DNA from: Glutamicibacter sp. PS
GTDB taxonomy: Bacteria > Actinomycetota > Actinomycetes > Actinomycetales > Micrococcaceae
DNA length: 64,000 bases
NCBI GenBank assembly: GCA_031317595.1
Contig: JANCMB010000001.1
Span: 2,669,610-2,733,609 of the forward strand
Reading direction: 5' to 3'
Part shown: piece after piece, positions 6,302-30,208 of the stretch
How positions within the stretch are numbered: position 1 is the stretch's first letter
Layout of the letters: the number at the start of each line of letters is the position of its first letter
Made by a program: the position numbers and the translations under genes
The notes under the pieces: model-generated
The model's input: only the letters and a program-made list of their open reading frames with translations
Told to the model about the DNA's origin: nothing
Databases searched by the model: none

Positions 6302-7297
6302 TCAGGTCCGCCGCAGGGTGAGTATGCGCTGGAGGATCACGAACACCAGCAGCAGCACGCCGATGACGATCTTGGTCCACCAGGAGCTCAGGGTCCCCTC
6401 GAAGGTGATGATGGTCTGGATCAGACCCAACACCATCACTCCGAGGACCGAGCCAAGCACAAATCCGGTGCCGCCGGTGAGCAGCGTTCCGCCGATCACC
6501 ACCGCGGCAATAGCATCGAGCTCCATGCCTACACCCGTGAGCGCGTAGCCCGAGCGGGAGAACATCGCGAAGAGCACTCCGGCCAGGCCGGCGCAAGTTC
6601 CGGAGATCACGTACACCATGACCTTGGTGCGTTCGACGCGTAGGCCCATGAGCGTGGCGGACTGTTCGCCGCCGCCCACCGCGTAGACGGTGCGCCCGAA
6701 CCGGCTGCGGTGCAGTACCCACCACGAGGCCAGCAGCACAAGTGCGGCGATCACCACCGCGGCGGTCAGCCGCCAGCGTCCGGAGGCCATCGTCCAGTTG
6801 GTCAGGGCGATGAAACCTTCATCGCGGATCGGCACGGATTCGGGGGCGAAAACGAAGCACAGGCCGCGGGCCAGGAACATGCCCGCCAGCGTGGCCACGA
6901 AGGGTTGGACCTCGAAGTATTGGATCATCACGCCCATACCCAGCCCGAGCAGTGACCCGGCGGCGATGGCTAGCGGTAGCACCAGCGCTACGTTCCACCC
7001 GGCGTTAAGCAGGGTTGCGGTGATGACCGAGGACAGGGCCAGCACCGAGCCCACCGACAGGTCGATACCGCCGGTGAGGATCACGAAGGTCATGCCCGCC
7101 GCCAGCACGATCAGGTGCGCGTTGTTGATGAAGAGGTTGGAGATGACCGCCGGGGATAGGAAGTTGTCGTAGCGTAGCCCACCAATGACGAGCATGAGCC
7201 CGAATACGAGCATGGTGCCCAGCACCGGAAGGTAGCGTCGGTCGAGTTTGGGCGGGCGGAATGTGCGGGTGCCGGCGAGCGCGGTTGCGGTGCTCAT
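6302..7297 (-). CDS. yjfF: ABC sugar permease, YjfF-like
   Basis: A 331-residue integral membrane protein of the BPD_transp_2 class used by ribose-type importers. The motif GGIDLSVGSV and the C-terminal stretch EGTLSSWWTKI closely resemble E. coli YjfF, the second permease of the YtfQRT-YjfF galactofuranose importer. It forms the membrane channel with the YtfT-like partner. Its ATG overlaps the stop of ytfT by four bases, so translation is probably coupled. The setting beside araA, araD and an arabinofuranosidase suggests that L-arabinofuranose is the substrate here. That is inference. Confidence 0.9.
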   Translation of the reverse strand: MSTATALAGTRTFRPPKLDRRYLPVLGTMLVFGLMLVIGGLRYDNFLSPAVISNLFINNAHLIVLAAGMTFVILTGGIDLSVGSVLALSSVITATLLNAGWNVALVLPLAIAAGSLLGLGMGVMIQYFEVQPFVATLAGMFLARGLCFVFAPESVPIRDEGFIALTNWTMASGRWRLTAAVVIAALVLLASWWVLHRSRFGRTVYAVGGGEQSATLMGLRVERTKVMVYVISGTCAGLAGVLFAMFSRSGYALTGVGMELDAIAAVVIGGTLLTGGTGFVLGSVLGVMVLGLIQTIITFEGTLSSWWTKIVIGVLLLVFVILQRILTLRRT

Positions 7298-8316
7298 GCG
7301 TTGACCTCCTGGTAACGGCGGCGCTCACGCAAGCCCGCCAGCATGCCACGCAGTCGTGGCGACATCATTAGGGTCACGGCAATCACGACGATCGCCTTGA
7401 ACATTGGGGTGACCAGCGGGGAAATGCCCAGCACGGTCACTGTGAGGTTCAGCGTGGTGATAATCAGCACGCCCACCAAGGTGCCCCCGAGGTTGAATTT
7501 GCCCCCGGCCAGCGAGGTACCACCGATCACCACCGCGAGGATGGCGTCCAGTTCGATAAACAGTCCGGCGTTATTCGCGTCGGCGGCCATGGTGTTGGAG
7601 GCGAAGATCAGCCCGGCCAGGCCGGCTAGTGCGCCGCAGAGGGTATAGACCGTAAAGACCAGCGTCTTGGATTTCACGCCGGCTAGGCGGCTGGCATCCG
7701 GGTTGATACCCACGGCCTCGAGCAGCATGCCCAAAGCGGTGCGTCGCACCAGAAGCGCAATCACGATGAAAACCCCGTAGGCGATCAGTGCGGCCACCGG
7801 AAGCCCGAGCAGGAAGCCCGAGGCCAGCGCCGCAAAAGGCGCGCTGTTCACGGTAGTGATCTGCCCGCCGGTGATCAACATGGCCACGCCACGACCGGCG
7901 GTCATCAGGATCAGCGTTGCGATAATCGGCTGAATGCCTAGTCCCGAGACGAGAAATCCGTTGAAGCCACCCAGTACGAGACACAATCCGAGGGCCACCA
8001 CAACGGCACCGAGTGCGGTGCCCAGCGATCCGGGATCGTGAGACCCGGCGATAAAGGTCAGTGCCACGGCTCCGGCGATGGCCACCGTCGCACCCACCGA
8101 CAGGTCGATGCCGCGGGTGGCGATCACCAGGGTCATGCCCAGCGACACCAGCAGCAGGGGTGCGCTATTACGCAGAATGTCGATCGGGGCCCCGAAAAGG
8201 TGTCCGTCAAGGACGCTGATGCCTAGAATGTCGGGACGTTTCAGGGTACAGGCCAGTAGTAGCGCGGCCAGCGCCACCACGGGCCAGAAGAGTCGATGTT
8301 TGTAGATGCGAGTCAT
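7294..8316 (-). CDS. ytfT: ABC sugar permease, YtfT-like
   Basis: A 340-residue membrane protein with RGIDLSVGATVAIAGA, GMLLEAVGINP and ADANNAGLFIELDAILAV, which follow E. coli YtfT almost word for word. It would pair with the YjfF-like permease and the YtfR-like ATPase at the membrane. It overlaps the ATPase stop and the next start by four bases each, as expected for a tightly coupled operon. Two different permeases in one importer is itself typical of the YtfQRT-YjfF subfamily and unlike the single RbsC of ribose systems. Confidence 0.92.
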   Translation of the reverse strand: MTRIYKHRLFWPVVALAALLLACTLKRPDILGISVLDGHLFGAPIDILRNSAPLLLVSLGMTLVIATRGIDLSVGATVAIAGAVALTFIAGSHDPGSLGTALGAVVVALGLCLVLGGFNGFLVSGLGIQPIIATLILMTAGRGVAMLITGGQITTVNSAPFAALASGFLLGLPVAALIAYGVFIVIALLVRRTALGMLLEAVGINPDASRLAGVKSKTLVFTVYTLCGALAGLAGLIFASNTMAADANNAGLFIELDAILAVVIGGTSLAGGKFNLGGTLVGVLIITTLNLTVTVLGISPLVTPMFKAIVVIAVTLMMSPRLRGMLAGLRERRRYQEVNA

Positions 8317-11042: not shown

Positions 11043-11128
11043 ATTCACCCAGTAAAGAGTTCGACGCAGATATGACCGGAATTTTTTCCCGATATAACGG
11101 GACTCGATCAGGCACCACGCTGACAATG

Positions 11129-11180
11129 AAAAAGTCGGACTACTAACACGTAACTGACGTCACAAAGTTAGCAGTCCGAC
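11129..11180 (-). terminator. Intrinsic terminator of the araBDA operon
   Basis: Arms 11134-11147 and 11167-11180 pair at 13 of 14 positions (GTCGGACT and AGTCCGAC at the base). On the minus strand TTTTT follows at once (11133-11129). It lies about 50 bases past the araA stop and separates this operon from the importer operon. Confidence 0.88.
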
Positions 11181-25049: not shown

Positions 25050-26288
25050 CTAGCCGGCGAGCCCGTGGCGGGTAAGGAATCCGTCGATCCGTTCGATGGC
25101 TTGCGCGATGGCCGTTGGCCCGGCGGCGAAGGACAGCCGCACATAACGATCTCCGGTAGCGGGGTCGAAGTCGTTGCCGGGGGTGAGCGCCACCCGTGCC
25201 TCATCCAGCACCGCCCGACAGTACGCCGACGCACTAGCGAAGCGTTCGAGTACCCGCGGAGCCAATCGGCCATAGAGGTAGAACGCTCCATCCGCCGGAG
25301 CGGCCGAGTCGAAACCAAGCCGCGCAAGATTCTGCATCACCAGCTCCCGGGATGCCGCGAACTCGGTCACTCGTTCACGAGCCTCGGCCATCGAGGCGGG
25401 GCTAAAGGCGTGAAGCACCGCCCGCTGCGCCGGGGCCGGTGCGCACAGGGCCAAGTTCGAGGCCAAGGCATCCACGGCACAGATCAGGTCATCTGGCACC
25501 AGCATCCAGCCCAACCGCCAACCGGTCATTCCCCAGAACTTGGAGAAGGACGAAACCACGAGGCTCTCACGCGAGTATTCCCAGGCGGTGTGGGCCGGAC
25601 GCTGTGGATCGAACTCGATCCCATGATAGATCTCGTCGCTGATCAAGCGCACCCCATGGCGTTGGCACCAGTGCGCCAGCTCGGCCAGCTCGGCACCGGA
25701 GAGCATCGTGCCGGTAGGGTTCGCCGGCGAGGCAATTACCAAACCGTCGAGCCTACTGTGTTCGGCGAGCGCCGCTTCGAGTGAAGCGACGGTGGGTTGG
25801 AAGCGCTGCTCCTCCCCGGTGGCGAGGTCCACTACCTGCAACCCGAGCGCGCTAAGAATGTTAGCGTAGGCGGGGTAGCCCGGACGTGCCAACGCGACTA
25901 CATCGCCCGGATCAAAGGCGGCAAGAAAGGCCAACTGGAAGGCTCCGGAGGAGCCGGTGGTCATCACGATATTCTCCGCAGGCAGTTGCACCGAATACTG
26001 CCGTGCGTAGTGTTCGGCCAGAGCTGCCCGGGTCTCGGGTAGCCCGCGAGTGGGCGTATACCCAAAGTCGGCGCCCTCGGCGTGGAGCTTGGCCGCGGCC
26101 GCGTTCACGGCTGCGGGTGCTCCCCCGCCGGGTTCCCCCACGCACAGCGAAATAACATCAATACCCTGAGCCCGTAGTGTGGAGACTCGATCGACTATGT
26201 CCATAACCTCGAAGGGTGCCACCGCGCCGCGGGCGGAGACCTTAAGGCGACTGACGGTGTGCTGCGCTTGTTTCCCACTCTCTGGCAT
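25050..26288 (-). CDS. PLP-dependent aminotransferase, class I/II
   Basis: A 412-residue fold-type I enzyme with GYTPTRGLPETR, SPANPTGTML, the PLP-binding Lys in SSFSKFWGMTGWRLGW and the carboxylate-binding Arg in RYVRLSFA. It resembles aspartate-type aminotransferases; the amino donor and acceptor are not clear. Its ATG lies only nine bases after the stop of the flavin monooxygenase gene and has no good ribosome site of its own, so it is probably translated from the same TPP-riboswitch transcript. That makes a link to thiamine or pyrimidine metabolism possible but unproven. Confidence 0.88.
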   Translation of the reverse strand: MPESGKQAQHTVSRLKVSARGAVAPFEVMDIVDRVSTLRAQGIDVISLCVGEPGGGAPAAVNAAAAKLHAEGADFGYTPTRGLPETRAALAEHYARQYSVQLPAENIVMTTGSSGAFQLAFLAAFDPGDVVALARPGYPAYANILSALGLQVVDLATGEEQRFQPTVASLEAALAEHSRLDGLVIASPANPTGTMLSGAELAELAHWCQRHGVRLISDEIYHGIEFDPQRPAHTAWEYSRESLVVSSFSKFWGMTGWRLGWMLVPDDLICAVDALASNLALCAPAPAQRAVLHAFSPASMAEARERVTEFAASRELVMQNLARLGFDSAAPADGAFYLYGRLAPRVLERFASASAYCRAVLDEARVALTPGNDFDPATGDRYVRLSFAAGPTAIAQAIERIDGFLTRHGLAG

Positions 26289-26297
26289 ATGCCGAGC

Positions 26298-27605
26298 TTA
26301 CCGCCCATACCCCTGTGCAAGATGCGAACGAAGTGTACTGCCCTGGTACCCCGTACGAAATCTGCCACGACGCTGCAATTCTGGGACGACGAGATCGACG
26401 AAGTCGCGAAGTCCCTCAGGCAAACTCGGTGGCATCAGGTTAAAACCGTCGGCCGCGCCAGTATCCAGCCATAGTTCAATCTCATCGGCGATGCTCTGTG
26501 GTGTGCCGATCATGGTGCAGTGACCGCCACCGGCGGCTAGGAATCCCAACAGTTCTCGCACCGTGGGTCGATGCATCTCGATGAGTCGCAAAATGGTCGC
26601 ATAGCGTCCTTTGGGCCCGGTGAAATCAGCCAGCGGCGGTAGTGGCGGCACCGGCTCATCCAGATCCCAGTCACTCACGTCCTGCTGTGTGAACAGTGCC
26701 AGCTGGCGCAGTCCCTGCTCTACAGGTAGCAACTGATCCAAGGCGCGCTTCTTGGTGTGTGCTTCGCCCATGCTGCGCCCCACGTAACAGACCAAGCCCG
26801 GCATGATCAATGGGCCTTGTGGGTCTCGGTCGTACCGGCTCGAGCGCCGCCGCAAATCACTGGCGTACTCAACGCCCATCTGGTGGTCCGCGGCCACCGC
26901 ATAGATACCTTCGGCGTACCGTGCTGCCATTTCACGCCCGGGCTCCGAAGCTCCGGCCTGAAAGATAACCGGCGGGCCGTACTCATGAGACACCGGAACG
27001 TTGAGTGGGCCGTTGACTGCAAAGTGTTCGCCTCGGTGTGCGATGGCGCGCGCACCGCTGGGATCCATGAAATGCCCCTCTCGGTCCACCTGTAGGGATT
27101 CCATGGGCCACGAGGCCCAGAGCTCGGAGAGCACCCGAATAAATTCATCGGCCCGTGCGTAGCGTTGGGCATGCTCGGGAAGCGCCGACATCGAGTGGTT
27201 CTGAGCTTCACTATCAAACATGCTCGTCACCACGTTTACACCCACTCGGCCACCACTGAGTTGCTGCAGGCTGGCCAGCAGTCGCGCCGCATGGAACGGC
27301 GAGTAGAAACTCGAGGAGACGGTGCTGATCAGCCCAATACGCCGGGTATGCTGACTCAGCGCGGTGAGCAGGGTCAACGGTTCGAAGAACCAGCTCGGCG
27401 ATTCGGCAGCCCTGCGTGGATCTAGGCTCTGCCCATCGGCAAAGAAGACCGCATCGAATAGTCCGCGTTCGGCCAGTTGGGCCAATTCGATGTGATAGTC
27501 CAGCGTGCCTAGGCGCTCAGCGGCCGAGGACCGGTGCCGCCAAGCGGCCTGATGGTGCCCGACCCCGTAACTGAAAAGATTCAGATGTAACTGTTTCAGG
27601 CTCAT
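26298..27605 (-). CDS. LLM-class flavin-dependent monooxygenase, NtaA/SnaA/DszA type
   Basis: A 435-residue luciferase-like TIM-barrel enzyme with the N-terminal FDAVFFADG, NVVTS and the FQAGASEPGREMAARYAEGIY stretch of the NtaA/SnaA/DszA branch. These use reduced FMN and oxygen to cleave C-S or C-N bonds or oxidise aromatic and sulfonated molecules. It overlaps the SDR gene by four bases and sits under the TPP riboswitch, so the substrate may be a thiamine precursor, analogue or breakdown product. Substrate is inference only. Confidence 0.88.
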   Translation of the reverse strand: MSLKQLHLNLFSYGVGHHQAAWRHRSSAAERLGTLDYHIELAQLAERGLFDAVFFADGQSLDPRRAAESPSWFFEPLTLLTALSQHTRRIGLISTVSSSFYSPFHAARLLASLQQLSGGRVGVNVVTSMFDSEAQNHSMSALPEHAQRYARADEFIRVLSELWASWPMESLQVDREGHFMDPSGARAIAHRGEHFAVNGPLNVPVSHEYGPPVIFQAGASEPGREMAARYAEGIYAVAADHQMGVEYASDLRRRSSRYDRDPQGPLIMPGLVCYVGRSMGEAHTKKRALDQLLPVEQGLRQLALFTQQDVSDWDLDEPVPPLPPLADFTGPKGRYATILRLIEMHRPTVRELLGFLAAGGGHCTMIGTPQSIADEIELWLDTGAADGFNLMPPSLPEGLRDFVDLVVPELQRRGRFRTGYQGSTLRSHLAQGYGR

Positions 27606-28396
27606 CCCTTAACCAGTCCACCATCGACGATGAGATTCTGTCCCGTCACTCCACGCGCCCACTCGCTGGCAAAGAAGAGCACCGCGTCGGCCAATTCCTC
27701 AGGTGTTGTAACCCGACGGGTCGGAGTACCTGCAGCAATGTAATCAAATACGTCGGCAGGGGTCGCAGCGGACGCGTCCGTGGTGCGTAGCAGACCCCCA
27801 GAAACCATATTCACGTTGATGCCCTCAGGCCCGAGATCTTCGGCAAAGGTGCGAGTCAACGAGAGCAGTGCCGCCTTGCCCGCGGTGTAGTCGTGGTAGG
27901 GAACCACCGGGTGCTGGAACAAGTTTGTGCCAATGTTGATAACCCGCCCGCCTCCGGCCGCGCGCATCGACGGAAGCACGGCCTGAATCGCTGCGACAGG
28001 TGCTAGCACCGACCCGGAGAATTGCCTCTGCAGGTCCGAAGGACTCAGATCGGCCGCCTTCGCGCGCGCATCGCCGTTGAAGGAGAAATCAAAAAGGGCA
28101 TTGTTGACCAGCGTGGTGATCGGCATGCCGAAATGTTGCTCACCTGCGGTCACGGCTTCCTTCAGTGTTTCGGGCTGGTTGAGATCGGCGTGCAGCGCCA
28201 GAGCCTGCTGCGGAAACTGCTCAGCGAGTTGCTCCGCCGCCCCTTGTGAGCGGTGGTAATTAATCAGCACACGTGCCCCGGCGCTCAAAAAGGCATGGCT
28301 GATAGCACGGCCTAGGCCGCGGCCAGCGCCGGTGACGAGGACGAGTTGTTCACCAATGAGTGGGGTACGTGCCACGGTGGCAGGTTGGGTGCTCAT
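27602..28396 (-). CDS. Short-chain dehydrogenase/reductase under a TPP riboswitch
   Basis: A 264-residue SDR with the cofactor motif VTGAGRGLGRAI, the NNAL segment, Ser and the YHDYTAGKAAL catalytic Tyr-x3-Lys, and a C-terminal IVDGG. The family look is that of 3-oxoacyl-ACP reductases, but many SDRs share it. AAGGAG stands five bases before the ATG and is part of a hairpin that would hide it. An SDR gene under thiamine control (oarX) has been reported in comparative genomics as I recall; I cannot tell if this is the same group. Confidence 0.9.
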   Translation of the reverse strand: MSTQPATVARTPLIGEQLVLVTGAGRGLGRAISHAFLSAGARVLINYHRSQGAAEQLAEQFPQQALALHADLNQPETLKEAVTAGEQHFGMPITTLVNNALFDFSFNGDARAKAADLSPSDLQRQFSGSVLAPVAAIQAVLPSMRAAGGGRVINIGTNLFQHPVVPYHDYTAGKAALLSLTRTFAEDLGPEGINVNMVSGGLLRTTDASAATPADVFDYIAAGTPTRRVTTPEELADAVLFFASEWARGVTGQNLIVDGGLVKG

Positions 28397-28401
28397 TCAG
28401 G

Positions 28402-28418
28402 CTCCTTGCGTTAAGGAG
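28402..28418 (-). promoter_or_regulatory. Shine-Dalgarno-masking hairpin of the TPP riboswitch
   Basis: On the minus strand CTCCTT (28418-28413) can pair with AAGGAG (28407-28402) across a five-base loop. The second arm is the ribosome site of the SDR gene. This would be an expression platform acting on translation start, the usual mode in actinobacteria. Confidence 0.72.
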
Positions 28419-28460
28419 GCGAACGGGAAGAGCGCAGCGGGCGACACCCACCAGGACAAT

Positions 28461-28528
28461 CCCTTCGCCAGTACTAACTGGATCAGGTTCAACGGGTGTA
28501 CTCTCAGCCGATATCCCGGCACCCCGTG
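28461..28528 (-). ncRNA. TPP riboswitch aptamer (THI element)
   Basis: Read on the minus strand the region holds GGGGTGCCGGG, then GGCTGAGAGTACACCC, then GAACCTGATCCAG and finally CTGGCGAAGGGA. These are the conserved blocks of the THI box in the right order and spacing. Visible helices are GGGTG/CACCC, GCCG/CGGC and CCAGT/ACTGG. It binds thiamine pyrophosphate and should shut down the SDR-monooxygenase-aminotransferase genes when TPP is high. Confidence 0.95.
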
Positions 28529-28629
28529 TCACTATCTCTACTCCTACCAGCAGGGCACGGCGAAGGACGAATGTTTCAACATGCCGTACACAGCTTCCGG
28601 AGGGCTATCAACAAATACTCCACATCATC

Positions 28630-28843: not shown

Positions 28844-30142
28844 TTACGAATCGCCGTCTGCGGCCAGCTGGCCGCAGGCTCCGTCGATTTCCTTGCCGCG
28901 GGTGTCGCGCAGGGTCGTCGGAACCCCCAGTTCGTCGAGCCGACGCACGAAGTCCCGGGTGATCTCTTCCTCGGAGCGGGTCCACACGGAGCCGGGCACC
29001 GGGTTCAACGGAATCGGGTTCACGTGCACCCAACCGCGGCCGCGAGCGTTGAGTTTCTTGGCCAACAGTTCGGCGCGCCAGGCGTGGTCGTTCATGTCCT
29101 TGATCAGCGCGTACTCGATGGAGACGCGGCGCCCGGTCTTCACGTAGTAGTCATAGGCGGCATCCAGTGCCTCGTCGACCTTCCAGCGCGAGTTCACCGG
29201 GATCAGCTCGTCACGTAGCTCATCGTCCGGGGCATGCAGCGACAGCGCGAAGGTCACCGGAACGTTTTCCTCGGCCAGCTTGCGGATGGCCGGAACCAGC
29301 CCCACGGTGGAGACCGTGATGCCGCGCGCGCTCATGCCCAGGCCTTCCGGGGCCTCGGCAACCATGCGGTGCACGGCGTTCATCACGCGCTTGTAGTTGG
29401 CTAGCGGCTCACCCATGCCCATGAACACGATATTGCCTACGCGCTCCTCGGGGTGCTTCTGTCCTCCCAGTCCGCCTTCGGCGATCACCCGGTTGGCCTG
29501 CACGATCTGGTCCAGGATTTCCGCGGTGGACATGTTGCGGGTCAGCCCGGCCTGGCCGGTGGCGCAGAACGGGCAGTTCATGCCACAACCACACTGCGAA
29601 GAGATGCACAGAGTGATGCGGTTCGGGTAACGCATGAGCACCGATTCGACGAGCGACCCGTCGAAGAGGCGCCAGAGGAACTTGATGGTTTTACCGTCGT
29701 CGGTGGTCAGCCGCTTCACCTCGGTGAGCAGCTTCGGAAACATCGCCGAGACCAGGTCCTCGCGACCGGCCTTGGGCAGATCGCTCATGGCCTCGGAATC
29801 GGTCGTGTAGTGCTGGAAGTAGTGCACGGAGAGCTGCTTGGCACGGAACCCCGGAAGCCCGAGCTCCTTGAGCTTCTCCTGGCGCTCGGACAGGGTCAGG
29901 TCAGCTAGGTGCACCGGTGGCTGCGAGACCCGACGCTTGGTGGAGAACTGCAGTTCGGGGCGGCCGTCGGCACCCATCTGCTGCTTCCACCCCTCGGCCG
30001 TGGGGATCACCTGGGCGCGCCCTTCGGCCTTGGCCCGCGATTGAGAAATACGCAGTTGCTGGGCGCGCTGGGCGGCGGCCTGCTCCTGGCGCAGGGCCTT
30101 GCGTTCGGCCGCGGACAGTGTGGTGGAGTTGCTCGAAGTCAT
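28844..30142 (-). CDS. rlmN: 23S rRNA (adenine-2503) methyltransferase RlmN
   Basis: A radical-SAM dual-specificity RNA methyltransferase of about 432 residues that methylates C2 of A2503 in 23S rRNA and often A37 of tRNA. The iron-sulfur motif CGMNCPFC (C-x3-C-x2-C) is in [15 protein letters not shown], and the C-terminal catalytic Cys is in [20 protein letters not shown] and ISTVG-like repeats fit. The N-terminal 80 residues, rich in Ala, Gln and Arg, exceed the E. coli length and are common in actinobacteria. Starts at 30151 and 30193 are also possible; none has a clear ribosome site. Confidence 0.93.
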
Positions 30143-30208
30143 CTCTTCCATTGTTTCATGTCTGCGTCTAAGAGCAACGGTGAAGTTGGGCACCTTCGCG
30201 CCGGTGGG

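Follow-up and report, generated by a model that had tools for sequence, protein, structure and literature searches.

A TPP riboswitch-linked pair of SDR and LLM monooxygenase genes in Glutamicibacter sp. PS and its relatives: a candidate cassette for thiamine salvage

The genomic stretch analysed here, a window of 64,000 nt from Glutamicibacter sp. PS to which all coordinates without a locus label refer, carries on its minus strand a riboswitch for thiamine pyrophosphate (TPP) that is followed by two genes, one for a short-chain dehydrogenase/reductase (SDR) and one for an LLM-class flavin mononucleotide (FMN)-dependent monooxygenase. Riboswitch, SDR and LLM monooxygenase form a conserved unit, referred to as the cassette, and its features in the window are as follows.

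28442..28536, minus strand: TPP riboswitch aptamer (RF00059; cmscan 71.0 bits, gathering threshold 54.3, model positions 1-105)
28402..28418, minus strand: putative hairpin masking the Shine-Dalgarno (SD) sequence, a possible translational expression platform (from sequence and fold)
27602..28396, minus strand: SDR oxidoreductase, 264 aa (NCBIfam PRK08642 “3-oxoacyl-ACP reductase” family, 389 bits, cut-off 292; PF13561)
26298..27605, minus strand: LLM-class FMN-dependent monooxygenase, 435 aa (TIGR03860 [NtaA/DmoA], 467.6 bits, cut-off 279.7; PF00296)

The SDR and LLM genes overlap by 4 nt, and RF00059 is the sole Rfam family that exceeds its gathering threshold across the window (cmscan). Alignment of the aptamer to the RF00059 consensus documents the conserved CUGAGA and ACCUGAUC...GAAGGGA segments of the ligand-contacting core. 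The full THI-box aptamer that the original prediction had placed at 28461-28528 passes the covariance model (71.0 versus 54.3 bits), and the predicted interval corresponds to the aptamer core. TPP riboswitches mostly mark genes for thiamine synthesis or uptake. Four further ones are present in the host genome, and they are associated with thiM-thiE-thiD/tenA and a permease gene, with a ykoE-ykoD-like pair, with thiC, and with a stretch containing thiG and a thiF-like gene (thiM, thiC, thiG and TenA named by model, YkoE by similarity, the rest read from translations). The presence of thiC, thiG, thiM and others at these loci suggests that the host is capable of making thiamine de novo, with the cassette as an extra.

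The leader of the cassette contains a CUCCUU segment (28418-28413) that pairs with AAGGAG (28407-28402), the SD sequence of the SDR gene, shortly upstream of the ATG at 28396. This SD sequence is 4% unpaired compared with a mean of 29% in shuffled sequences, and seven of 100 shuffles are equally closed; the folding of the whole window leader is no better than that of its shuffles (z 0.45). The predicted SD-masking hairpin thus exists at 28402-28418, but its masking effect is statistically weak. A different device follows the aptamer (82 bits) in the plasmid leader of Mesobacillus foraminis (L089 4903-5082), namely a 13-bp terminator with a T run (one found, 0.2 expected). Judged from their sequences, the masked SD in the window and the terminator in the Bacillota copy would both fit an OFF switch, a behaviour that we infer.

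The SDR is FabG-like, and its best solved relative reaches only 104 bits, hence none is close. Residues T22, G23, G27, G29, Y170 and K174 are identical in at least 39 of 40 loci and correspond to the TGxxxGxG and YxxxK motifs of classical SDRs; N98 is, like Y170 and K174, near-invariant in the 40 loci. The AlphaFold2 model of the LLM monooxygenase (pLDDT 90.5, pTM 0.91) retrieves CmoJ/YtnJ (E 2e-40), BdsA (TM 0.86), the riboflavin lyase RcaE (TM 0.86), nitrilotriacetate (NTA) monooxygenase and EmoA as best Foldseek matches. The protein shares the TIGR03860 family and the fold with the NtaA/DmoA FMN monooxygenases (NTA monooxygenase, EmoA, CmoJ/YtnJ, BdsA/DszA, RcaE), but it is 29-36% identical to the solved ones (CmoJ, BdsA, NTA monooxygenase, RcaE) and falls into a riboswitch-linked clade of its own. 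For the SDR, the LLM and the adjoining aminotransferase of the window, no thiamine model (ThiC, ThiG, ThiD, ThiE, ThiM, TenA or other) is among the family matches listed. Pfam returns only SDR, LLM and aminotransferase families, and the NCBIfam matches listed (the best 25 each for SDR and aminotransferase, all 10 for LLM) are likewise of these kinds, in agreement with the earlier statement that none of the three genes belongs to known thiamine synthesis or uptake. In comparison with known TPP regulons (RF00059), the cassette therefore combines the same full-length aptamer and consensus core with genes that match no thiamine synthesis or transport family.

The conservation of the cassette was surveyed in 149 genomes of the host's family. 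Some LLM match at E <= 1e-60 is present in 76 of them, and the strict orthologue set (E <= 1.1e-150, 56-100% identity) comprises 37 genomes including that of the window. All 37 strict carriers have a TPP riboswitch ahead. The 30 fetched strict loci, the window's own included, uniformly show the SDR immediately upstream of the LLM gene and an above-gathering TPP riboswitch before the SDR; the other seven harbor a same-strand TPP riboswitch shortly upstream of the LLM gene, with the SDR position checked in two of these only, i.e., L045 (SDR apart from LLM) and L048. Among 17 further contig loci the riboswitch scores above the cut-off in ten and is absent in five distant homologues; in Nesterenkonia haasae and N. 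salmonea it lies just under the cut-off with 52.8 and 52.4 bits. The order riboswitch-SDR-LLM was also found in all four examined plasmid records (out of six), namely, those of Rhodococcus sp. DMU1, Pseudochrobactrum sp. XF203, P. algeriensis and Mesobacillus foraminis. The cassette is accordingly distributed over Actinomycetota, Alphaproteobacteria (also Rhizobium sp. CFBP 8762) and Bacillota, and the recurrence of this gene order with THI boxes in relatives, on which the original prediction depended, extends across three phyla.

At the level of the order, 14 of 347 genomes match the LLM at E <= 1e-130, nine of them outside the family; six of these nine have riboswitch and SDR directly ahead, and the other three (G696, G658, G590) each exhibit a variant arrangement. 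At the level of the phylum, matches at E <= 1e-110 are confined to three of 396 genomes, namely that of the window and two others with 45-48% identity. In a FastTree phylogeny of 56 LLM sequences the riboswitch-linked copies form one clade (local support 0.76), to which L099 and L100 are the sister group, and the distant homologues branch outside; the “no riboswitch” labels of L095, L099 and L100 in this tree predate their re-examination. Distant LLM homologues (37-48% identity; L056, L057, L068-L070, L072, L074) were rejected as members, because there is no TPP riboswitch in the stretch covered and no adjoining SDR, with L056 and L057 covering only 1.5 kb per side and the SDR match of L069 (29%) lying at a distance of about 3 kb. 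The divergence of the SDRs parallels that of the LLMs (Mantel r 0.81, 0 of 2000 permutations, 40 loci with two near-identical copies), which could also come from host relatedness alone. A solitary LLM gene with its own TPP riboswitch was observed in L041 3392-5573 (G034), with no SDR among the matched open reading frames (ORFs) and transposase-like ORFs nearby.

The association of the pair with thiamine genes becomes apparent from several deviating arrangements. In L045 6354-11165 (G001), the SDR and LLM genes are about 2.5 kb apart, separated by a formate-tetrahydrofolate ligase-like gene (by reading) and one more ORF, with a separate TPP riboswitch for either gene (7236-7344 and 11058-11165). 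A single TPP riboswitch precedes the order thiM-thiE-thiD-SDR-LLM in L053 5382-9859 (G035), where the LLM is split over two ORFs; L054 contains a second, incomplete copy. In L103 1440-5245 (G696, also L095), a TPP riboswitch of 66.7 bits lies about 1.6 kb upstream and is followed by thiM-thiE-SDR-LLM, with thiM and thiE named from translations. The loci L043 and L044/L064 (Enteractinococcus coprophilus) show TPP-SDR-LLM and then TPP-thiD-MFS-thiM-thiE (thiM of L044, missed as an ORF, was placed there by model search). In Arthrobacter rhombi (L065) and in L073, a divergent TPP riboswitch precedes a ykoE-like gene; near the cassette riboswitch, L092, L094, L065 and L073 each have another TPP riboswitch in the opposite orientation. 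YkoE-, YkoD- and YkoC-like genes are located downstream of the LLM gene in Brevibacterium sp. CS2. The latter belong to an island with the order TPP, NUDIX, ThiD, CMP 5-hydroxymethylase homologue (272 bits), methyltransferase, NUDIX, TPP, SDR, LLM, YkoE, YkoD-like, YkoC-like, which is part of an 11,128-bp stretch that is 99.92% identical between the genomes of two families (Brevibacterium sp. CS2, L062 2695-12659; G120, L050). A recent transfer of this island is likely from its sequence. The neighbours from thi operons and the split genes with a riboswitch on each support the thiamine-linked pathway of the original prediction in part, since the aminotransferase that it included does not belong to the unit. 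We regard it as highly probable that the SDR-LLM pair serves thiamine-linked supply or salvage.

Two sister copies of the LLM gene without an SDR (L099, L100) have a zinc alcohol dehydrogenase gene (ADH_N and ADH_zinc_N) directly in front. In L099 5723-11603 (G658), the zinc alcohol dehydrogenase and the LLM are preceded by a DAO-family gene (ThiO-like by position), ThiG and ThiF in this order, and ahead of these lies a TPP match that scores 53.3 bits against a cut-off of 54.3. The occurrence of two unrelated dehydrogenase families beside the same LLM suggests that the partner likely catalyses a step between an alcohol and an aldehyde or ketone, which speaks against the name “3-oxoacyl-ACP reductase”.

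The main text of Sun and others 2013 (PMC3766115) counts 20 biosynthesis and 19 transporter orthologues as TPP-regulated genes, and the words “monooxygenase” and “oxidoreductase” are absent from this main text, its supplement excluded. We found no description of a TPP-controlled SDR-LLM pair in a literature search that reached neither the tables of RegPrecise nor the bulk of the subscription papers, so that a prior mention is possible. The pair may already be listed there as a TPP-regulated operon without a function; the name “oarX” for a THI-regulated oxidoreductase could not be traced. A pair of oxidoreductases that keeps its riboswitch in three phyla, on each of the split genes and inside thi operons makes a strong genomic case for a step that has not been described, and the generic annotations “3-oxoacyl-ACP reductase” and “LLM class flavin-dependent oxidoreductase” thereby become a testable thiamine hypothesis.

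Which half of thiamine is concerned was approached via the gene content of the 37 strict carriers and 108 non-carriers, with the partial-orthologue genomes G034, G035, G098 and G119 left out. Broken or partial thiC genes (G048, G083, G096, G144) were counted as lacking intact thiC, only strong matches were considered (ThiG, E below 1e-80; ThiM, over 170 bits), and genome lists and genus labels were compiled by hand. ThiG or ThiM is present in all 37 carriers versus 90 of 108 non-carriers (Fisher p 0.007), and ThiG by itself in 32 of 37 versus 61 of 108 (p 0.0013); ThiM was found in 20 carriers and is thus missing in 17. Among the ThiG-positive genomes, thiC is missing in 22 of 32 carriers compared with 22 of 61 non-carriers (p 0.004), and the thiG-positive, thiC-negative state remains associated with the cassette after stratification by genus (p 0.007). 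The universal presence of ThiG or ThiM together with the lack of intact thiC in 27 of 37 carriers points to the pyrimidine side. A TenA-family match was obtained for 32 carriers, and the other five (G001, G021, G025, G053, G110) are also devoid of thiC. No thiC was detected in the same-genus carriers G023 and G051 either. Partial thiC matches in carriers (G083:C2:967689-968441; G048:C10:163857-163994, short and weak) are possibly thiC in decay. According to two studies, thiG is more prevalent than thiC among the reference genomes of one of them (PMC12637900) and auxotrophy for hydroxymethylpyrimidine (HMP) is common in nature (PMC12637900, PMC11452348); the pattern of the carriers is for this reason a lead and not a proof. 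Gene content favours supply of the pyrimidine over that of the thiazole, and we see a roughly even chance that the cassette acts on the pyrimidine side.

Our preferred reading is a TPP-repressed, two-enzyme oxidative salvage cassette, most likely for the pyrimidine side of thiamine, to which we assign a probability of about 45%. If TPP is scarce, the riboswitch would allow the synthesis of both enzymes, at the level of translation in the window and of transcription in the Bacillota copy. In this scheme, the LLM monooxygenase would use reduced FMN and O2 to hydroxylate a carbon adjacent to a heteroatom; its substrate would bear the thiamine pyrimidine and could be a thiamine that is damaged or modified, or an aminomethylpyrimidine with an N- or S-substituent. 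The hydroxylated product would break down and free the pyrimidine aldehyde, in the same way as NTA monooxygenase frees glyoxylate. The SDR, or the zinc alcohol dehydrogenase in two relatives, would then use NADPH to convert this aldehyde to HMP, and ThiD and ThiE could process the HMP further together with a thiazole supplied by ThiG or ThiM. Within this NtaA/CmoJ/BdsA-like family, NtaA and EmoA are amine-dealkylating enzymes that liberate the aldehyde glyoxylate, and the substrates of CmoJ and BdsA are C-S compounds; by analogy, the LLM may plausibly break a C-N or C-S bond. The succession of LLM and reductase is the simplest joint action of both enzymes, but we propose this chemistry tentatively and consider it rather unlikely; the dehydrogenase could alternatively act first, in the opposite direction. 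The proposed product, HMP from degraded thiamine, is also that of the pyrimidine salvage by TenA and ThiY-YlmB, but the enzymes of the cassette belong to different families and five of 37 carriers have no TenA match. Most carriers lack intact thiC yet have a thiazole route, and the step could therefore explain the vitamin supply of some apparent pyrimidine auxotrophs. A more far-reaching version, in which aerobes would obtain HMP by an oxygen-dependent route instead of through the radical-SAM enzyme ThiC, with the monooxygenase and a dehydrogenase (SDR or zinc alcohol dehydrogenase) freeing it from an unrecognised precursor and the unit spreading across phyla under riboswitch control, appears doubtful.

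Several observations weigh against the pyrimidine salvage reading. The direction of the SDR reaction is assumed and the substrate only a candidate class. Classical SDRs have a catalytic Ser 13 residues before the Tyr, whereas the SDR of the cassette has Thr157 at this position, as in at least 39 of 40 loci. The sole TPP match ahead of the zinc alcohol dehydrogenase and LLM genes in L100 5495-7842 (G590) is weak (33.5 bits). General masking of the SD sequence across the leaders was considered and is unsupported: of 37 leaders that entered the survey, one yielded no start codon, and for the other 36 the mean SD openness was 40% compared with 43% in shuffled sequences, with seven in the lowest 5% and 20 less open than their shuffled mean, as determined with a crude SD finder. 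The loss of thiC alone is not significant, with intact thiC in ten of 37 carriers versus 44 of 108 non-carriers (p 0.17); after stratification by genus it is borderline (p 0.05) and the presence of ThiG is not significant (p 0.20), and control for relatedness in these statistics extends to the genus level only. The carriers could take up HMP. Ten of 37, including the window genome, retain thiC, so that the cassette is not merely a substitute for it, and a replacement of thiC was discarded as full explanation. Finally, several operon partners (thiM, thiG, thiF) are genes of the thiazole branch, which also fits a role on the thiazole side.

Such a role, in which an oxidised or substituted thiazole would be the source from which the pair produces or regains hydroxyethylthiazole or its phosphate, is in our view the less likely option, but it draws on the location of the pair in or near operons with thiM (L053, L103, L043, L044/L064) or thiG-thiF (L099), on the ThiM of 20 carriers and on the activity of CmoJ and BdsA, close structural relatives of the LLM, toward C-S compounds. 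The enrichment of ThiG in carriers (32/37 versus 61/108) implies that most of them can make the thiazole themselves, and the lack of ThiM in 17 of 37 does not fit either. It is still less probable that the cassette serves removal instead of supply, its target being a thiamine antimetabolite or a damaged cofactor such as a bacimethrin-like pyrimidine or oxidised thiamine. The island of Brevibacterium sp. CS2 and G120 combines the pair with a CMP 5-hydroxymethylase homologue and a methyltransferase, which resemble bacimethrin-type chemistry, and with two NUDIX genes, reminiscent of the clean-up of damaged TPP. However, this gene set is restricted to the island, i.e., two genomes, among 43 long loci, the hydroxymethylase is represented in the 149 family genomes by one full match (G120) and one distant match, and repression by TPP fits better to a response to shortage than to detoxification. 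Acquisition of sulfur or carbon, with a riboswitch captured by chance or reading TPP as a general signal, is very improbable. The LLM family includes enzymes of desulfurisation and xenobiotic degradation, and in Enteractinococcus coprophilus (L044 1-4430/L064) a divergent MetQ-, MetN- and MetI-like set and an LLM paralogue adjoin the cassette, with a SAM riboswitch near the TPP riboswitch; these transporter-like names come from translations, the arrangement was seen in that organism only, and the neighbours were not searched by model. The maintenance of the TPP riboswitch with the pair in three phyla and on both genes when split, and the position of the pair inside thi operons, speak against this explanation.

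The remaining alternative, to which we give hardly any credence, is a three-gene thiamine operon with the adjacent aminotransferase as a pathway enzyme. The features that flank the cassette in the window are:

25050..26288, minus strand: class I/II aminotransferase (PF00155), a neighbour outside the conserved cassette
28844..30193, minus strand: rlmN-like gene (from its translation), the upstream flank of the inserted cassette and not a member

The three tightly packed genes of the original prediction do lie on the same strand with an overlap of 4 nt and a gap of 9 nt, and since the aminotransferase gene starts only 9 nt after the LLM stop, it is possibly co-transcribed and may share the message of the cassette in the window. 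The gene order in relatives contradicts its membership in the unit. In a search of 14 genomes, the aminotransferase was detected in all seven same-genus relatives irrespective of the presence of the cassette, and it is unlinked in four carriers, on a different contig in G023 and G051 and far from the cassette in G127 and G142; it was therefore rejected as a third member. Five of the seven same-genus relatives retain the order aminotransferase-DUF2695-DedA. In the non-carrier G095 (L078), a gene equivalent to that at 28844..30193, for which we assume the name rlmN-like from its sequence, is located immediately upstream of the aminotransferase; at its end, the DNA is 86.8% identical to the window region. 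The simplest account of this comparison would be an insertion of the cassette between the rlmN-like gene and the aminotransferase.

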